Positions 28,129 to 43,574 of a stretch of 43,581 nucleotides of DNA are shown here, one piece after another. Position numbers and translations under genes: made by a program. The notes under the pieces were generated by a model. It ran no database searches, was not told the DNA's origin, and was given only the letters and a program-made list of their open reading frames with translations. Origin of the DNA: Hyphomicrobiales bacterium (GTDB taxonomy: Bacteria > Pseudomonadota > Alphaproteobacteria > Rhizobiales > Methyloligellaceae); NCBI GenBank assembly GCA_028280515.1, contig JANQLP010000244.1, forward strand, positions 1 through 43,581, in the 5' to 3' direction. Each line of letters starts with the position of its first letter. Positions within the stretch are counted from its first letter, which is position 1.

Positions 28129-28400
28129 TGTCCGCTCATAAGCGGAAAGGGGACTCCCCGGGCGCCGTGCGGTGACGTCCGCTCGTCACCCAAGGCGGAC
28201 ATGACAAGCGATTTCAAACTTCGTCTCAACTGCCGCTAATGCATGCGCGCGCCCAGGGTTACCGCTCCCGGGGAAGCCCCTGGAAGCGCCGCCATCCGAA
28301 GTCCCCAACAACTCTTGTGTGATGTTATATAATTACGTATTAAGCAGGCCAATCGGTGGTGGAGGCATCGCATGAGCAGGCGGGCAGCAAAGATCCAGGT
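28129..28400 (+). repeat. Duplicated promoter segment, copy A (zinc operon)
   Basis: This ~270-bp segment is clearly similar to 42014-42260. Shared landmarks in the same order are TCCGCTCAT, TTTCAAAC-TCGTCTCAAC, TGATGCATG or TAATGCATG, TTCTTGTGT/TCTTGTGT, the ATGTTATA core, TTAAGCAGGC and GGAGGC-6-ATGAGC. Both copies carry a Zur-like palindrome and the start of a short leader ORF, and both lie upstream of zinc-related genes in the same direction. Confidence 0.75.
28319..28336. promoter_or_regulatory. Putative Zur operator of the zinc-limitation operon
   Basis: GTGATGTTATATAATTAC is an 18-bp imperfect palindrome with 12 of 18 positions symmetric. Its ATGTTATA core is like the known proteobacterial Zur boxes (ATGTTATAACAT-type). 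It stands upstream of a COG0523 GTPase and a DUF1826 gene, which are common Zur targets. The assignment rests on motif memory and context. Confidence 0.6.
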
Positions 28401-28473
28401 GGGGTGTTGGCCGTCTTGCGCCGCCGCGGCTTTCTGTCCGCCAACGATGTCCTGGGAGTGGCACAAGCTTTAG
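28372..28473 (+). pseudogene. Leader ORF or truncated first gene of the zinc operon
   Basis: ATG 28372 follows GGAGG with ideal 6-base spacing and opens 33 codons starting MSRRAAKIQVG. The same ribosome site and start (MSKRGAE) occur in copy B at 42243. The other frame from about 28380 reads DPGGVLAVLRRRGF and LSANDVLGVAQALG, which looks more protein-like, so this may be a frameshifted remnant of a former first gene. A translated leader is the alternative. No family is recognised. Confidence 0.4.
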
Positions 28474-28515: not shown

Positions 28516-28893
28516 ATGAAAGTTGCCTATGTCTTCGCCACAAACATGGCCGCCACGTACAAACTCGCCACCATGATCTTGCCGCAGCTTGAGGACGGCG
28601 AACACGGCGCAGAAGTCGTGGGGATGTTCTTCTTTGACGACAACCTGTTCTGCTTGCGTGAGGGCGATCCTGTCGGCGAGCGCTTGGCGAAGGTCGCGAA
28701 GGAACAGAACATCCTGCTCATGATCTGCGACCAATGTGCTGTGCGCCGCAACTTGGCCGAAGGCACCCTCGAGCAATGCGGCAAGGGAGAGGTTACGGCG
28801 AAGGGCACGGTCTCTGGTGTTGAGGCCGGATGCTTCCCGCAGCTCTACGCTGCATTGGCGCCAGCCATGCCCGATCAAGTCATAACACTGTGA
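28516..28893 (+). CDS. SaoD/DsrE-family protein
   Basis: 125 residues with the DsrE-like fold: [20 protein letters not shown] at the N-terminus, [22 protein letters not shown] in the middle, and [18 protein letters not shown] near the end. A CxxC pair (C71, C74, in [11 protein letters not shown]) plus C46, C88 and C106 could carry sulfur or bind a metal. DsrE-type proteins relay persulfide sulfur; SaoD is a related, poorly characterised branch. Ribosome site GGAG lies eight bases upstream. First full gene behind the Zur-like box, 20 bp before the COG0523 GTPase, so it may help deliver sulfur or zinc under zinc shortage. Confidence 0.8.
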
Positions 28894-28913: not shown

Positions 28914-30131
28914 ATGTCTGCAATCGACCAACGTCTTCCCGTTACCGTACTTTCCGGCTTTCTTGGGGCCGGCAAGACGACGCTGCTTAACCGCGTACTG
29001 AACAACCGTGATGGCCGGCGGGTCGCCGTCATCGTCAACGACATGTCCGAGGTGAATATCGACGCCGATCTGGTGCGTGCGGACACCGAGCTCAGCCGCA
29101 CCGACGAGACACTGGTTGAGATGTCGAACGGCTGTATCTGCTGCACGCTGCGCGACGACCTGCTGGCCGAGGTCCGGCGCCTCGCGGGCGAGGGGCGGTT
29201 CGATTATTTGCTGATCGAGTCCACCGGAATTTCCGAACCGCTGCCCGTTGCCACGACTTTCGAATTCCGCGATGAAAAGGGCGAAAGCCTTTCGGATGTC
29301 GCCCGTCTCGACACGATGGTGACGGTCGTGGATGCGGTCAACCTGCTCAAGGACTATTCCAGCCACGACTTCCTGCACGACCGGGGCGAGACGCTGGGGG
29401 ATGAGGACGATCGGACACTCGTTCATCTGTTGACTGACCAGATCGAATTCGCGGACGTGGTGATCCTCAACAAGGTCGCCGACGCGGAGCCACATCAGGT
29501 GGACGCGGCGCGAAAGATCATCCGCAGCCTCAACGGCGATGCCCGGATCATCGAGACCAACCACTCCGACGCGCCGGCGGACGCGATCCTCGACACCGGG
29601 CTTTTCGATTTCGAGAAGGCGCACGAACATCCGATGTGGGCCAAGGAACTCTACGGCTTCGCCGATCACGTGCCGGAGACCGAAGAATACGGTGTTGCGA
29701 GTTTCGTCTACCGGGCACGTCGTCCGTTCGTGCCGGAGAAGGTGAAGGCTGTCCTGAACGGCGAGATGCCCGGCGTCATTCGCGCCAAAGGGCATTTCTG
29801 GCTCGCCACGCGGCCCGATTGGGTGGCCGAGTTCTCGCTGGCAGGCGCCTTGTCGAGCATCACGCCGCTCGGCACCTGGTGGGCCGCCGTTCCGAAGGAG
29901 CGTTGGCCGGACAATGACACTGCGCGTAGGTATATGGCCGATAACTGGCAGGAGCCCTGGGGTGACCGGAGGCAGGAGATTGTCTTTATCGGTGCCGACA
30001 TCGACTGGCCACGCTTGAAGGCGCGGCTCGACGCCTGCCTTCTGCCCGAGGATCTCGCATCAGACCCTGACTCGCTCCCTGATCTGCCTGACCCGTTTCC
30101 GATCTGGCGGCGCGCGGAGCAAGCGGCATGA
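28914..30131 (+). CDS. zigA: COG0523 (CobW/ZigA-type) GTP-binding zinc metallochaperone
   Basis: 405 residues from ATG 28914, with GAGGGA upstream. G1 motif GFLGAGKTT (15-23), the family's metal-binding CxCC (C74, C76, C77 in [12 protein letters not shown]), switch region [10 protein letters not shown] and G4 motif NKVA, then the CobW C-terminal domain ([12 protein letters not shown] ... [10 protein letters not shown]). Members in Zur operons (ZigA, ZagA, YeiR-like) are believed to deliver zinc to enzymes in zinc starvation. The symbol is given from family and context, since subfamilies of COG0523 cannot be separated by eye. Its stop overlaps the start of the DUF1826 gene (ATGA). Confidence 0.88.
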
Positions 30132-30763
30132 CCGTTGTGCGAGAAATCGCGAAAGACGCGGCCATCGAGGTTGACGTGGCGGACGCAGCGGAGGGATTGT
30201 CCGCGATCCATAATCCGGGTTGCGCCGCAGTGATCTGGAGGCGCCAAGTGTTGCCGGACTTTCAATCCTGGATCGATGCGCTGCCGCCTGAACAACTGCC
30301 GCAGGCGCGGGTGATCCTGCGCCCTGAGGACGTGCGAGACGCCGTGTTCCAGATCTGCAAGGCGACCGGCATCGCGAACTGCGCCGAACGGGAACAGCTC
30401 GTAGACGATACCGCGGTTCTGGCGGACATCTTTACCAGCCTGGTGCCCGCGCCATATCTCCGGCTGCGCTTTGACGTCGTCACGACAAACGCCTGCACAA
30501 AATTCCACATCGACGCCGTGACAGCACGTCTCATCTGCACCTATCGGGGGACGGGCACGCAATACGGCGTCGCGGCCGACGGGGCCGAACCTCGGCGGGT
30601 TTTCACCGTGCCCACCGGCGCCCCGATTCTGCTGCGCGGCACGCTTTGGCCCGAGCGTCCGAAATCCGGCCTGCTGCACCGCTCACCGCCCATCGAGGGA
30701 ACGGGCGAGACACGGCTTGTGCTTGTCCTTGATCCGGTACTGGAGCCCGACGAGGCGCAGTGA
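30128..30763 (+). CDS. DUF1826 domain protein of the zinc operon
   Basis: 211 residues. Conserved DUF1826 features: the [16 protein letters not shown] segment, [25 protein letters not shown] and the end [24 protein letters not shown] and C residues ([15 protein letters not shown]) may bind a metal or form a 2-oxoglutarate-oxygenase-like site. The function is unknown. The gene is coupled to the COG0523 GTPase, a pairing common in Zur regulons of alphaproteobacteria. The last ~90 bp are duplicated at 42265-42345. Confidence 0.88.
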
Positions 30764-32181: not shown

Positions 32182-33771
32182 TCAAGACGCCGGAACGTTG
32201 AATGTGATGCCGTCTTCTTTGATTTTCTCAACGAGATTCACTTCCCACGTCAGATATTTGTTCGCCGCGGCCCGCTCCTGATCGGGGTCGTCATATTCAA
32301 AAGGCTTGTACCAGACATCGTCACACTCGCTGTAGCGTTTCTCAAAGCCGCTTGCCATCGGATAGCCCGCGTTGCGCCAGGCATCGTTGCCGCCCTTCAA
32401 CGCGTACACCGGCACAGAAGAATCCCCGGAAAGGTCGTTGAGCACATATGCCACGAGCGCAGGGTCATCGCCGGTAATGACAACCTCGTCATGTTGCTCC
32501 ATATCCGATTTGATCGTGTCGTATCGGCCTCGAACAGCCCAGGCCGCTCCGGGGATGTGTTCGGTCTTGTGTGAGACAGAGACCGCCACGTCGAGCAGGA
32601 GTACAGCACGATCACCGTTTATCTTCTCTGCCAGCGCTTCGACCGGAATTATGGCGCTTTCGTCAACCAAATGGTCGAGCTCAGTGGAAGACTTGGCCGT
32701 CAAATCTTGCGAGTGCACGTTGTCCAGGACAAAGACGTTCTCAAGGCCCAGTTGCAAAAGCCATGACGCTGTCATGACCGCACGGATCGTTTCGGGGTCG
32801 ATCAGGACGATCGTTGCGTTGCGCACGGCGATATAATCGTCGGTTGCCTGAACCAGTTGGCCTCCCGGGGCGTTGTCCGTGTCTGGCAGATGCCCTTGCG
32901 CAAATTCCTCCGGTCCGCGGACGTCCAGACAATAGACAGTGCGGTCCTCCTTTTGCCTGAGTTCCGCGAGTTCGCCTTTCTGAATGAACCGAACCCCGAA
33001 GCAGTCGGCGACGCGCCGCATACACTCCTCCGCACGGCGGCGTGTTTCCTGAGTAAGTTCCGGGATACGTCTGGTTTGCCCGGTTTCGAGTTCATATCCG
33101 GCAAGCTTCCAACCCATGGTGCCATTTCTCAGGCAATAGACGTCATTGGGCAGACCGGCATTTATCAGGGACTGGCATCCGATGATCGAACGGGTGCGGC
33201 CGGCGCAGTTCACGACAATTGCCGTGTCAGCATCCGGTGCCAACTCGTGCGACCTGAATGCGAGTTCGGCGCCGGGCACGCTAACCGAGGTTGGAATGGT
33301 ATGGTGATGGTATTCAACGAAGGGACGGCTATCCAGCACCACCATCTTTCGACCTTCATCCATCCAGGCCTTCAAGATCTCAGGCGTGATGTCAGGCGTG
33401 CCGCTGTGCTCGTAAACAATCTCGCCGAACGCTTTGCTCAGGACGTTCACACCGCTGTAGGTGGAACATCCAGCGTCGGACCAGGCCTGGACGCCGCCTT
33501 TGAGGATATTGATGTTCCTGTATCCAAGATCCGTGAGCTTCGCGTGGGCCTGTTCGGCCAGGCCTTCGCCGGCGCCATCCATCAGTACAATGAACGCGTT
33601 CTTGTTCGGCACAAGCGTCGGGGCACGCAATTCGAGCCGGCTCATGGCGAGGCACGATGCGAACAGCAATCTGTTTTCGCTGAATGCTCCTTCCTCCCGC
33701 ACATCAAGCAGGGCGTACTCCTGATCCGTCTCTGTCAGTTTCTTGACCTGACCCGGGTCGAGAAAGCGCAT
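32182..33771 (-). CDS. Four-domain rhodanese protein with one active domain
   Basis: 529 residues from ATG 33771 (GGAGGGATTGATC upstream). Four rhodanese domains in tandem, each with its own LLDVREE-like start: about 1-105, 125-230, 265-355 and 375-475, with a ~55-residue tail. Only domain 2 has the catalytic cysteine (C189 in CAGRTRS). The matching loops in the others read DGAGEG, DPETIR and GDDPAL. Rhodaneses move sulfane sulfur to thiols, cyanide or sulfite. The start lies two bases after the stop of the thiol dioxygenase gene, so the pair is translationally linked and probably handles sulfur released from the oxidised thiol. Confidence 0.9.
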   Translation of the reverse strand: MRFLDPGQVKKLTETDQEYALLDVREEGAFSENRLLFASCLAMSRLELRAPTLVPNKNAFIVLMDGAGEGLAEQAHAKLTDLGYRNINILKGGVQAWSDAGCSTYSGVNVLSKAFGEIVYEHSGTPDITPEILKAWMDEGRKMVVLDSRPFVEYHHHTIPTSVSVPGAELAFRSHELAPDADTAIVVNCAGRTRSIIGCQSLINAGLPNDVYCLRNGTMGWKLAGYELETGQTRRIPELTQETRRRAEECMRRVADCFGVRFIQKGELAELRQKEDRTVYCLDVRGPEEFAQGHLPDTDNAPGGQLVQATDDYIAVRNATIVLIDPETIRAVMTASWLLQLGLENVFVLDNVHSQDLTAKSSTELDHLVDESAIIPVEALAEKINGDRAVLLLDVAVSVSHKTEHIPGAAWAVRGRYDTIKSDMEQHDEVVITGDDPALVAYVLNDLSGDSSVPVYALKGGNDAWRNAGYPMASGFEKRYSECDDVWYKPFEYDDPDQERAAANKYLTWEVNLVEKIKEDGITFNVPAS

Positions 33772-33773
33772 GA

Positions 33774-34352
33774 TCAATCCCTCCGGTCGACGATATTGGT
33801 GACGGGGGATGAAGGTTCCCATGCATCCGACTCTTCATTCCAGAACACGCGATCGAACAGCCGGTCCAGAGCCAGCCCGTAGAGGTGAAGGTTGGAAAAC
33901 GGTTCGGGACCGTTGATGGCGATAGAATGAATATCGTCCGGCATCAGTGAGATGCTCTCACCGGCCGACACTCTCGTCTTTTTGGACATTATGGGCGCCC
34001 CGCCATTGGTGGAGTCGTACAGTGTATTTTCCTCAACGCCCGAAATGCCGGCGATACAGGCCCACGTAGTGTGGTTGTGCGGCGGCACGGATGCCGGTGC
34101 GTTCGCCACTTGATAGTAAAGCGCAAACTTGTGATCGTCGTCTTCCGACAAGCGGTACAGCACGATCTTGTCCGTCGCCGAAATTCCAAACTCATCGGCC
34201 GGAAAGAGTTCCGGATGCGCGGCCAACTTGCGTAGCTCAGCCTCGATCCTGACAAGGGTTTCTCGGCTGACGATAGATTCCGAGCGGCAAATCTCCTTAA
34301 TCGCACTTATGGTGCCGGCAACCCGACTCTTGCGTAACGCACTGAAAGTCAT
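33774..34352 (-). CDS. Cysteine dioxygenase-like thiol dioxygenase (cupin)
   Basis: 192 residues in a double-stranded beta-helix fold. The iron-binding triad is H92, H94 (PPHNHTTW) and H142 (DDIHSI), and H156/Y158 (NLHLYG) match the second-sphere His and Tyr of cysteine dioxygenase. C99, five residues after the second histidine, aligns with the cysteine that forms the Cys-Tyr crosslink in mammalian CDO. The enzyme should use O2 to turn a thiol into a sulfinate. Relatives act on cysteine, 3-mercaptopropionate or mercaptosuccinate; the substrate here is open. GGGAGA lies ten bases before the ATG. First gene of the minus-strand arm, divergent from the GntR gene. Confidence 0.88.
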   Translation of the reverse strand: MTFSALRKSRVAGTISAIKEICRSESIVSRETLVRIEAELRKLAAHPELFPADEFGISATDKIVLYRLSEDDDHKFALYYQVANAPASVPPHNHTTWACIAGISGVEENTLYDSTNGGAPIMSKKTRVSAGESISLMPDDIHSIAINGPEPFSNLHLYGLALDRLFDRVFWNEESDAWEPSSPVTNIVDRRD

Positions 34353-42013: not shown

Positions 42014-42260
42014 TCCGCTCATGCGCGGGAAGGGGGCGTTCCGCCCAGGTCACTCGAACTTCCGTTTCTGACCCCGAGCTGATCTGGCAAGCGTTTTCAA
42101 ACCTCGTCTCAACCAGCGCTGATGCATGAGCCGGCCCGGATGCCGCACCTGAGGAGCACCGCAATCGAACATCGGCAACAAGTTCTTGTGTAATGTTATA
42201 AGATCACGTGTTAAGCAGGCGGGTCCGTGGCGGAGGCGTTACATGAGCAAGCGGGGCGCG
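42014..42260 (+). repeat. Duplicated promoter segment, copy B (class III ADH)
   Basis: Similar to 28129-28400 along its whole length, with scattered substitutions and small indels. Landmarks in order: TCCGCTCATG, GCGTTTTCAAACCTCGTCTC, TGATGCATGAG, TTCTTGTGTAATGTTATA, TTAAGCAGGC, and CGGAGGC before ATGAGC. The copies differ enough that the duplication is not very recent. Confidence 0.75.
42190..42207. promoter_or_regulatory. Putative Zur operator of the class III ADH gene
   Basis: GTAATGTTATAAGATCAC is symmetric at 14 of 18 positions and closer to the Zur consensus (GTAATGTTATAACATTAC-like) than copy A. It lies about 205 bp upstream of the ADH start, in the same relative place as in copy A. 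Confidence 0.6.
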
Positions 42261-42338
42261 GAGCGAGCGTCCGAAATCCGGCCTGCTGCACCGCTCACCG
42301 CCCATCGAGGGAATGGGAGAGACGCGGCTTGCCCTTGA
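42243..42338 (+). pseudogene. Fused leader ORF and DUF1826 3' fragment
   Basis: The ATG at 42243 has GGAGG six bases upstream, as in copy A. After about eight codons (MSKRGAER) the sequence jumps to a copy of the last ~90 bp of the DUF1826 gene. Bases 42265-42318 match 30653-30706 nearly perfectly (one or two differences), then match with small gaps to about 42345. The DUF1826 piece is out of its original frame and the ORF stops at 42338. This is a deletion-fusion remnant, not a working gene. Confidence 0.7.
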
Positions 42339-42410
42339 TCCCGTGGAGTGTCCGGATTTCCCATCCCAACAACTCCCGCATTGACCCTCACACTCAGTAG
42401 GAGACTGACC

Positions 42411-43574
42411 ATGAAAACACGCGCAGCCATCGCATGGGAGCCAAACCGACCGCTGGAAATCGAAGAAATTGACCTTGAAGGCCCTAAAGAAGGTGAGGTT
42501 CTGGTCCGGATCGTGACGACCAGCCTCTGCCATACTGATGTGTTCACCCTGTCGGGCGAAGACCCCGAAGGTCTGTTTCCCTGTATTCTGGGACATGAGG
42601 GCTGTGGCGTGGTGGAGGAAGTTGGCAAAGGCGTTACATCGGTTGCGCCGGGAGACCATGTTATCCCGCTTTACGTCCCCGAAGATCCCGACTGCCCATA
42701 CATCAAATCGGGTAAGACCAATCTTTGCCAAACTATCCGTAAAACCCAGGGTGCAGGGTTGATGCCTGATGGAACCTCGCGTTTCTCGTACAAGGGCAAA
42801 CAGATCCTGCACTATATGGGTACCAGCACGTTCAGCGAATACACGGTTCTGCCCGAAATCTCGGTCGCCAAGATCGCCAAAGAAGCGCCCTTGGCCAAGG
42901 CATCAGTCATGGGCTGTGCCGTACCGACAGGCATTGGGGCTGTGCGCAACACCGCCAAGGTCGAGGCGGGCGCAACGGTCGCTGTCTTTGGTCTCGGAGC
43001 CGTCGGCATGGCTGTGATTCAGGGCGCTGTGATGAACGGCGCATCGCGGATCATCGGCATCGACATCAACACGGCAAAGTTTCCTCTGGCTACGGCGCTA
43101 GGCGCTACGGAATGCCTCAATCCGAAAGATCATGACGCACCGATACAGGACGTATTGGTCGAAATGACCGGGGGCGGCCTCGACTACACTTTCGAGGCCG
43201 TGGGCAATGTAGAGCTCATGCGCTCGGCGCTCGAGGCGTGCCATAAAGGCTGGGGAGAATGCACCGTAATTGGTGTTGCCGGTGCAGGGCAGGAAATCGC
43301 GACGCGGCCCTTCCAACTTGTCACCGGCCGGGTCTGGCGCGGTACCGCCTTTGGCGGTGTGTTGGGACGGAGCGAGCTGCCCGGCATGGTCGACGAGTGG
43401 TTGCGCGGCGACTTCAGCGTCGATCCCTATATCACGCATCACATGACGCATGGCCAGATCAACACCGCCTTCGACTTGCTTAAGGCCGGCAAGTCGATCC
43501 GGTCTGTCGTCCACTTCGAGCCGAGCAAGACCATGACGATCAACACCCTGCCGGGTGAAATTGTTCCGGAATGA
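42411..43574 (+). CDS. Class III alcohol dehydrogenase / S-(hydroxymethyl)glutathione dehydrogenase with altered structural zinc site
   Basis: 387 residues, a zinc-dependent MDR enzyme. Catalytic zinc ligands C40 (SLCHTD), H62-E63 (GHEG) and C169 (MGCAVPTG) are kept, as is the NAD motif [11 protein letters not shown] (193-203). Near-identity to class III signatures ([55 protein letters not shown]) identifies glutathione-dependent formaldehyde dehydrogenase. The structural zinc loop, normally C-x2-C-x2-C-x7-C, here reads [17 protein letters not shown]. Positions 1 and 3 are D92 and I98, and only C95 and C106 remain, so structural zinc is probably not bound. It lies behind a Zur-like box. TAGGAG precedes the ATG at 42411. 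The gene is complete. Confidence 0.93.

Follow-up and report, generated by a model that had tools for sequence, protein, structure and literature searches.

A small gene on a contig of a Hyphomicrobiales bacterium, referred to here as saoD, very likely belongs to the zinc-starvation (Zur) regulon, both in the 43,581-nucleotide stretch of DNA analysed here (the window) and in numerous other bacteria. Its membership of that regulon probably spans several phyla and has apparently gone undescribed. What was computed is the family, fold and cysteine conservation of the protein, a gene neighbourhood that recurs among its relatives, and operator words that saoD has in common with zinc genes.

The saoD gene and its operon

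In the window, saoD stands first in a tightly packed operon, followed by a zigA-like gene and a DUF1826 gene:

28516-28893, forward strand: saoD/dsrE-like gene, 125 aa, with C71-x2-C74, C88 and C106 (NF040913, AlphaFold2, Foldseek)
28914-30131, forward strand: COG0523/ZigA-like GTPase with a CICC motif (NF038288; Pfam cobW 4.2e-53, CobW_C 8.5e-24)
30128-30763, forward strand: DUF1826 protein (PF08856, 3.3e-56)

The saoD open reading frame (ORF) runs from ATG to TGA, encodes both C71 and C74, and was confirmed as a real gene: it is not a chance frame, because its retained relatives are 60–94% identical and spread over many phyla. Its product matched the NCBIfam model NF040913 (DsrE_rel_ELSE, “SaoD/DsrE family protein”) with 210.9 bits over residues 1–125 of 125, above the cut-off of 152. 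The SaoD equivalog model of the same library, NF040732, aligned over the whole length with 121.7 bits, below its cut-off of 169, and Pfam DsrE scored 19.5, under the gathering score of 22.7. No Sao partner was recognized among ten window proteins scanned with NCBIfam models. The COG0523 gene starts after a spacing of 20 bp, and its 3′ end overlaps the DUF1826 gene by 4 bp. Its product fell narrowly short of the ZigA model NF038288 (598.6 bits, cut-off 600) and, judged by its sequence, is clearly a ZigA-like COG0523 protein.

Two further observations concern the surroundings of saoD. The DUF1826 protein (30128-30763) keeps H127-x-D129 and H184 in three aligned sequences, an H-x-D...H arrangement that we take to be reminiscent of the iron/2-oxoglutarate oxygenase triad; a structure model built from the three sequences was discarded as too poor (pLDDT 54). 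About 3.3 kb downstream of saoD, the reverse strand encodes a 546-aa protein with four rhodanese stretches (32182-33822), which is adjoined by an alcohol dehydrogenase of the iron-containing type.

Fold and conserved cysteines

SaoD is presumably a small, cytosolic protein. AlphaFold2 modelling from a 61-sequence alignment headed by the window protein gave a pLDDT of 97.5 and a pTM of 0.90, and a Foldseek search with this model returned five matches at E ≤ 0.001, all to DsrEFH chains, an archaeal DsrE/F-like protein or a TusBCD chain. Among them were DsrE (2hy5_A, E 1.4e-5) and 2d1p_A (E 6.9e-5), the TusBCD chain that we take to be TusD, with a probability of 1.00 and 15–17% identity. By its predicted structure, SaoD thus has the DsrE fold. 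The initial annotation had described a CxxC protein (C71/C74) of the DsrE type from the letters alone, and the confirmed ORF, the NF040913 match and the modelled fold all bear it out. In a profile alignment, C71 fell on the DsrE carrier cysteine and the following RR was also common to both, although this alignment is weak (E 0.73). Matches of the profile to CBP/p300 among solved structures (E 0.18–0.87) were set aside as a chance likeness of a cysteine-rich stretch.

Conservation extends well beyond C71. All 80 relatives kept for the counts have C71, D72, C74, R78, C106, F107, P108, Y111, H30 and D41 without exception. An aligned C88 is present in 77 of them, and 78 have some cysteine in that loop; these figures may be flattered because some of the peptide patterns used for recruitment contain these cysteines. 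The mean column identity was 73% over 61 sequences. In the model, C71 ends one strand and C106 follows directly after the next; the two strands are predicted to be neighbours, so that the cysteines would meet.

Zinc genes recur beside saoD across phyla

Scanning genome contigs yielded 263 confirmed relatives, and the best 80 were retained. These loci had been recruited with six peptide patterns, three of them containing the cysteines. Locus anchors were set from tblastn (93), as our home-made ORF caller, which mis-called some starts and high-GC frames, had missed 19 of the 93. Taxa are those of the record titles; the records are mostly metagenome-assembled genomes (MAGs) and single cells, some of which may be mis-binned. 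We queried the zinc markers COG0523, DUF1826, ZnuA, ZnuB, Fur, HisI, FolE and ZIP within 3 kb of saoD (near) and at 4.5 kb or more (far), comparing 431.6 and 345.1 kb of flank, respectively.

A zinc marker was found near saoD in 39 of the 80 loci (in 36 on the same strand) versus far from it in 5. After clustering at 90% anchor identity, the same held for 25 of 46 clusters, with a far marker in 4. By individual query, the near and far counts (of 80 loci) were 24 and 2 for COG0523, 13 and 0 for ZnuA, 13 and 1 for ZnuB, 11 and 3 for Fur, 9 and 0 for HisI, 5 and 0 for a YpdA-like flavoprotein, 4 and 1 for DUF1826, 3 and 0 for FolE, and 1 and 0 for ZIP; the controls gave 7 and 1 (SDR query) and 2 and 0 (TonB query). 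The near/far P values were 5.3e-5 for COG0523, 4.8e-4 for ZnuA, 3.3e-3 for ZnuB, 5.1e-3 for HisI, 0.069 for Fur and 0.067 for the SDR control; those of the queries chosen after viewing the neighbourhoods (HisI, FolE, ZIP, YpdA, ArsP, MerB, WD40 and dCTP deaminase) are optimistic. The COG0523 and DUF1826 queries were taken from the window. On representatives, Pfam and NCBIfam confirmed the labels PRA-CH (HisI), GTP cyclohydrolase I, ZIP, ZnuA, DUF1826, dCTP deaminase and Pyr_redox_3.

The zinc-linked rows of the saoD tree include, among those listed, Pseudomonadota, Planctomycetota, Gemmatimonadota, Nitrospinota, Chloroflexota, Thermomicrobiota, Ignavibacteriota, Bacteroidota, Deinococcota and Hydrogenedentota; the tree has 125 columns and many unresolved forks, with phyla given by record title. 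Both the coupling of saoD to a COG0523 metallochaperone and its zinc-starvation setting, as proposed in the initial annotation, are thus upheld: the first by the 20-bp spacing in the window and the near/far counts of COG0523, the second by zinc neighbours that recur in many phyla and by the zinc-gene type of operator that often stands before saoD itself. An absence of repeated co-occurrence across genomes, which the annotation had named as evidence against itself, is not what we found.

A zinc neighbour within 3 kb or a zinc-type operator was present in 44 of the 80 loci and neither in the other 36, which counts against the zinc reading, as do the SDR control (7 near versus 1 far), two haloarchaeal copies with sulfur genes, and the context of saoD in Thermus thermophilus HB8 and HB27. 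The loci without a zinc link include six Nitrospinota-type and five Armatimonadota-type copies with other neighbours. In the two haloarchaea, saoD is accompanied by genes for TusA, rhodanese and YeeE. The HB8 and HB27 strains of T. thermophilus carry it between an Argonaute-type gene and surE, with no zinc gene annotated near it and no evident palindrome at it.

Other named records present a zinc context. In Thermomicrobium roseum, a Fur-like repressor (by BLAST), znuABC-type genes and saoD stand in one row, and a metal-ABC binding protein adjoins saoD in Thermus oshimai, with one of the same type close by in T. brockianus. Matches occurred in 32 plasmid records, seven of which were inspected. 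On the T. brockianus plasmid (L095, 6400-9136), a COG0523 sequence starts 25 bp behind saoD and resumes past an IS1634-family transposase, as if the gene had been split by insertion. By eye, the saoD promoters of T. oshimai and T. brockianus contain Fur-type words.

A Nitrospinota MAG (bin107) carries two near-identical saoD genes (L027 and L031), one among znu-, fur- and COG0523-like genes and the other behind what by eye looks like a TRAP-type transporter locus, where the gene directly before saoD had no Pfam match. Members of the MerB and MerC families were seen inside zinc-type gene sets (L007:1160-1864, L157:10264-10668 and L168:3701-4108), which points to zinc-starvation members within these “mercury” families as well.

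Among 289 genomes of the window's class, which judging by the relatives is Alphaproteobacteria, its own genome included, six had a saoD match, three of them above the cut-off. COG0523 lies within 0.9 kb of saoD in four of the six (G000, G065, G120 and G148); G065 retains only a degenerate remnant of saoD, and in G120 the contig ends within the gene. The other two have a Zur-box-like site only, at −395 in G241, where saoD has an in-frame stop and a Fur-like gene lies 3.6 kb away, and at −118 in G258, where saoD is cut by the contig end.

Operators shared with zinc genes

The 300 bp before saoD were searched for palindromes in all 80 loci. Zur-type palindromes stand right before saoD in four loci titled Alphaproteobacteria (L004 at −83, L005 at −82, L017 and L019 at −62 and −44) and also in L100; the 15-bp core of L005 is exact on one strand, with 0 expected in 200 shuffles.

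Four Bacteroidota/Balneolota loci (L063, L065, L070 and L071) have the word TGCAACnnnGTTGCA in common. It occurs 5, 9, 2, 5, 0 and 2 times in six whole genomes, and its backwards control 0 times in all of them. Five of these 23 sites lie 62–120 bp before the four saoD genes, in genomes with 2–9 sites each. The others stand before, or within 300 bp of, fur (three, all Pfam FUR), a YpdA-like flavoprotein gene (three), DUF1826 (two), FolE (one, and one more behind MerC in a fur-divergent pair), a MerC-COG0523 pair (one) and TonB-type receptors (four, one by Pfam and three by look); four sites match none of these gene types, one of the four being intragenic. On the Balneolaceae chromosome, all five sites fall within ~10.5 kb around saoD. 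Judged by the genes behind it, TGCAACnnnGTTGCA looks like a zinc-regulon operator of Bacteroidota/Balneolota (L157-L172).

In six Chloroflexota/Thermomicrobiota genomes, TGATACTnAGTATCA was found 0–3 times per genome at up to one mismatch, and its control 0 times. Three sites of this type in G298 precede saoD, a ZnuA gene and a COG0523 pair, and two in G299 precede znuA and saoD. Taken over four Bacteroidota/Balneolota and two Chloroflexota/Thermomicrobiota genomes, palindromes common with fur, FolE, DUF1826, COG0523 or znuA stand 30–147 bp before saoD. The genomes of L058 and L035 lack these operator words. The words were first picked upstream of saoD, which the random-placement P values calculated for the operators do not take into account, so the independent support comes from the other genes behind the same words. 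In these relatives, an operator shared with zinc genes is present, and Zur is its likely binder. As a separate observation, three lone Bacteroidota saoD genes (L075, L080 and L081) have a common perfect palindrome, TTATCCCTACCATAGGGATAA, ~180 bp upstream.

The window promoter, a zur-like remnant and a possible collapsed copy

Upstream of saoD and near the end of the window, we noted the following features:

28319-28341 (core 28323-28337), no strand: Zur-box-like palindrome GTGATGTTATATAATTACGTATT, 14/21 consensus positions
28360-28458, forward strand: truncated zur-like (Fur-family) remnant between the palindrome and saoD, by identity to L006
42085-42255, forward strand: diverged copy of the saoD-operon promoter region, 71.7% identical to 28202-28384, with its own palindrome at 42190-42212
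42264-42337, forward strand: copy of the 3′ part of the DUF1826 gene, 93.2% identical to 30652-30725

The palindrome before saoD is degenerate and only the second-best site of the 43.6-kb window, the best (15/21) being the one in the promoter copy at 42190-42212. Of 2000 simulated 300-bp stretches, one reached a score of at least 14, but 8 of 60 simulated whole windows contained such a site. In the organism's own genome (5.41 Mb), the core word occurs at 16 sites with up to three mismatches, one being the saoD box, versus 34 for the reversed control word. Among the other sites, one lies between a Fur-family gene and hisI (contig C127) and two overlapping ones in the promoter copy; neither ZnuA contig of this genome (C156 and C101) has any of the 16 palindromes. 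As the control word is commoner and the ZnuA contigs lack a site, the box of the window rests on its position and on the relatives, not on the rarity of its word. An initial scan of the window with a 13-mer at three mismatches gave 21 matches versus 20.4 expected and has no evidential value, for which reason a longer consensus, the relatives and genome-wide counts were used instead.

The zur-like remnant aligns over 103 columns, at 76.7% identity, with L006:2463-2565. In this near relative, that stretch contains the start of an intact Fur-family gene (Pfam FUR 2.3e-13) of the sister operon, whose order is operator, fur, saoD, COG0523, DUF1826. Because L006 keeps an intact gene at that place, most of the zur gene has most likely been lost from the window operon. 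The description of saoD as the first gene of its operon therefore holds for the operon of today, but a zur-like gene appears to have once stood between the operator and saoD.

Two copies within this genome are of separate interest. The promoter copy and the DUF1826 3′ copy (42085-42337) directly precede a zinc-type alcohol dehydrogenase gene (42348-43574), an arrangement that might suggest a duplicate of the operon, since collapsed, as the source of a Zur-type promoter for that gene. A second saoD copy (G000:C127:993-1363, L096) is disrupted by a change of frame and by in-frame stops. It adjoins hisI, and upstream lie a Zur-like palindrome and a Fur-family gene truncated by the contig end.

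What SaoD may do in zinc starvation

We tentatively favour, at somewhat less than even chances, a zinc-thiolate exchange of SaoD with COG0523 over a classical sulfur relay. The gene is probably repressed by a Zur-type regulator of the Fur family, in the window as in many other bacteria, with the operators described above as putative Zur sites, and it is probably expressed alongside COG0523 GTPases, zinc importers and back-up copies of zinc enzymes. To C71, probably at the position of the DsrE carrier cysteine, the protein adds C74, C106 and, in nearly all relatives, C88; together these would form one site whose thiolates bind zinc. Under zinc scarcity, SaoD would pass zinc to COG0523, whose CxCC motif is likewise thiolate, or take zinc from it. 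On sequence grounds, the four conserved cysteines would fit metal binding as well as or better than sulfur handling. Judging by its fold and C71, SaoD may descend from sulfur carriers; the regulon, the partners and the three extra cysteines suggest that it now serves zinc.

A sulfur relay operating in zinc starvation, as the initial annotation had envisaged, is the nearest alternative, although we consider it unlikely. C71 would carry a persulfide as in DsrE/TusD and give sulfur to some acceptor, either for zinc-sparing thiolation or for the rebuilding of thiolate sites. The DsrE fold agrees with such a role, as do the weak profile alignment that places C71 and the common RR on DsrE (E 0.73), the haloarchaeal copies beside TusA, rhodanese and YeeE, and the four-rhodanese protein on the other strand of the window. 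It gives no place to three more conserved cysteines besides the carrier one, and zinc neighbours are far commoner than sulfur genes: tblastn with the haloarchaeal TusA, rhodanese and YeeE found 0 of 80 loci at E ≤ 1e-4, a search that may miss distant bacterial forms.

Two other readings are each quite unlikely. In the first, SaoD would act in thiol redox or repair, its CxxC keeping zinc sites or COG0523 reduced with electrons from a co-regulated YpdA-like NAD(P)H flavoprotein. The Pyr_redox_3 gene of this type lies near saoD in 5 of 80 loci and far from it in none, and it follows the same palindrome as saoD in three of the six Bacteroidota/Balneolota genomes searched; reviews record DsrE-like and CobW-like selenoproteins with UxxC, which PMC9312934 gives as separate rows. 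Against this, the gene was not found near saoD in the remaining 75 loci, the flavoprotein stays below the YpdA model cut-off (66.2 versus 339.9), and C106 and C88 are left unexplained.

The second, of similarly low probability, makes SaoD a filter for thiophilic metals (Hg, Cd or organometals leaking in through derepressed zinc importers), akin to the SAO system, which a review presents as a proposed Sec-assisted organometallic operon (PMC13188914). It would account for the sub-threshold SaoD match and for MerB-like, MerC and ArsP/SO_0444/SaoE-like permeases among the neighbours or co-regulated genes, but the SaoD, SaoE and SaoL models all score below their cut-offs, and MerB-like and ArsP-like genes occur in only 1 and 4 of the 80 loci.

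That saoD merely accompanies zinc operons and has no function connected with zinc is very improbable: the 36 loci without a zinc link, the SDR control and the broken or degenerate copies (C127, G065 and the in-frame stop of G241) would fit it, but lone saoD genes with their own zinc-gene-type operator in several lineages and the high conservation of the protein (mean column identity 73%) speak against it.

The zinc-thiolate exchange that we favour has a bearing on COG0523 GTPases, which include ZigA, YciC and human ZNG1. How these proteins obtain the zinc that they hand on is a question for which SaoD would be a concrete candidate partner from the same regulon.

Comparison with known systems

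We take COG1553 and COG2044 to be the DsrE COGs. The window's operon is of the same kind as the Zur-regulated COG0523 (YciC/ZigA) clusters with DUF1826, HisI and FolE, in which COG0523 and DUF1826 occur with spare zinc enzymes, as set out in the available portions of Haas et al. 2009 (PMC2770081); in those same portions, no DsrE-type member is given, with 0 occurrences of COG1553, COG2044 or DsrE. In line with the initial annotation, which had called such a partner not well described, no link of DsrE or SaoD to Zur or zinc starvation was found in the literature searched, outside of which most subscription journals lay. An apparent co-mention of DsrE and Zur in PMC6374484 turned out, in the part of the record seen, to be the German word “zur” in references.

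Compared with SaoD of the SAO system (NF040732), the window protein aligns over the whole length yet stays below the cut-off. Candidate SAO partners among the relatives' neighbours also fall below the cut-offs, with matches to SaoE at 199.8 and 52.1 (cut-off 325) and to SaoL at 44.5 (cut-off 140). A broader view, in which NF040913 would be a core, cross-phylum and as yet unrecognised member of the bacterial zinc-starvation regulon, a DsrE fold turned from sulfur carrier into a zinc-thiolate chaperone working with COG0523, and SaoD of the SAO system its possible offshoot, seems to us somewhat doubtful.

With DsrE of DsrEFH and with the TusBCD chain 2d1p_A, the window protein shares the fold, but it differs by the extra C74, C88 and C106 and by its zinc context. 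The NF040913 family, finally, is matched over the full length; its model description names no function, and the zinc-regulon placement added here gives a functional setting to a family named in databases by resemblance alone.
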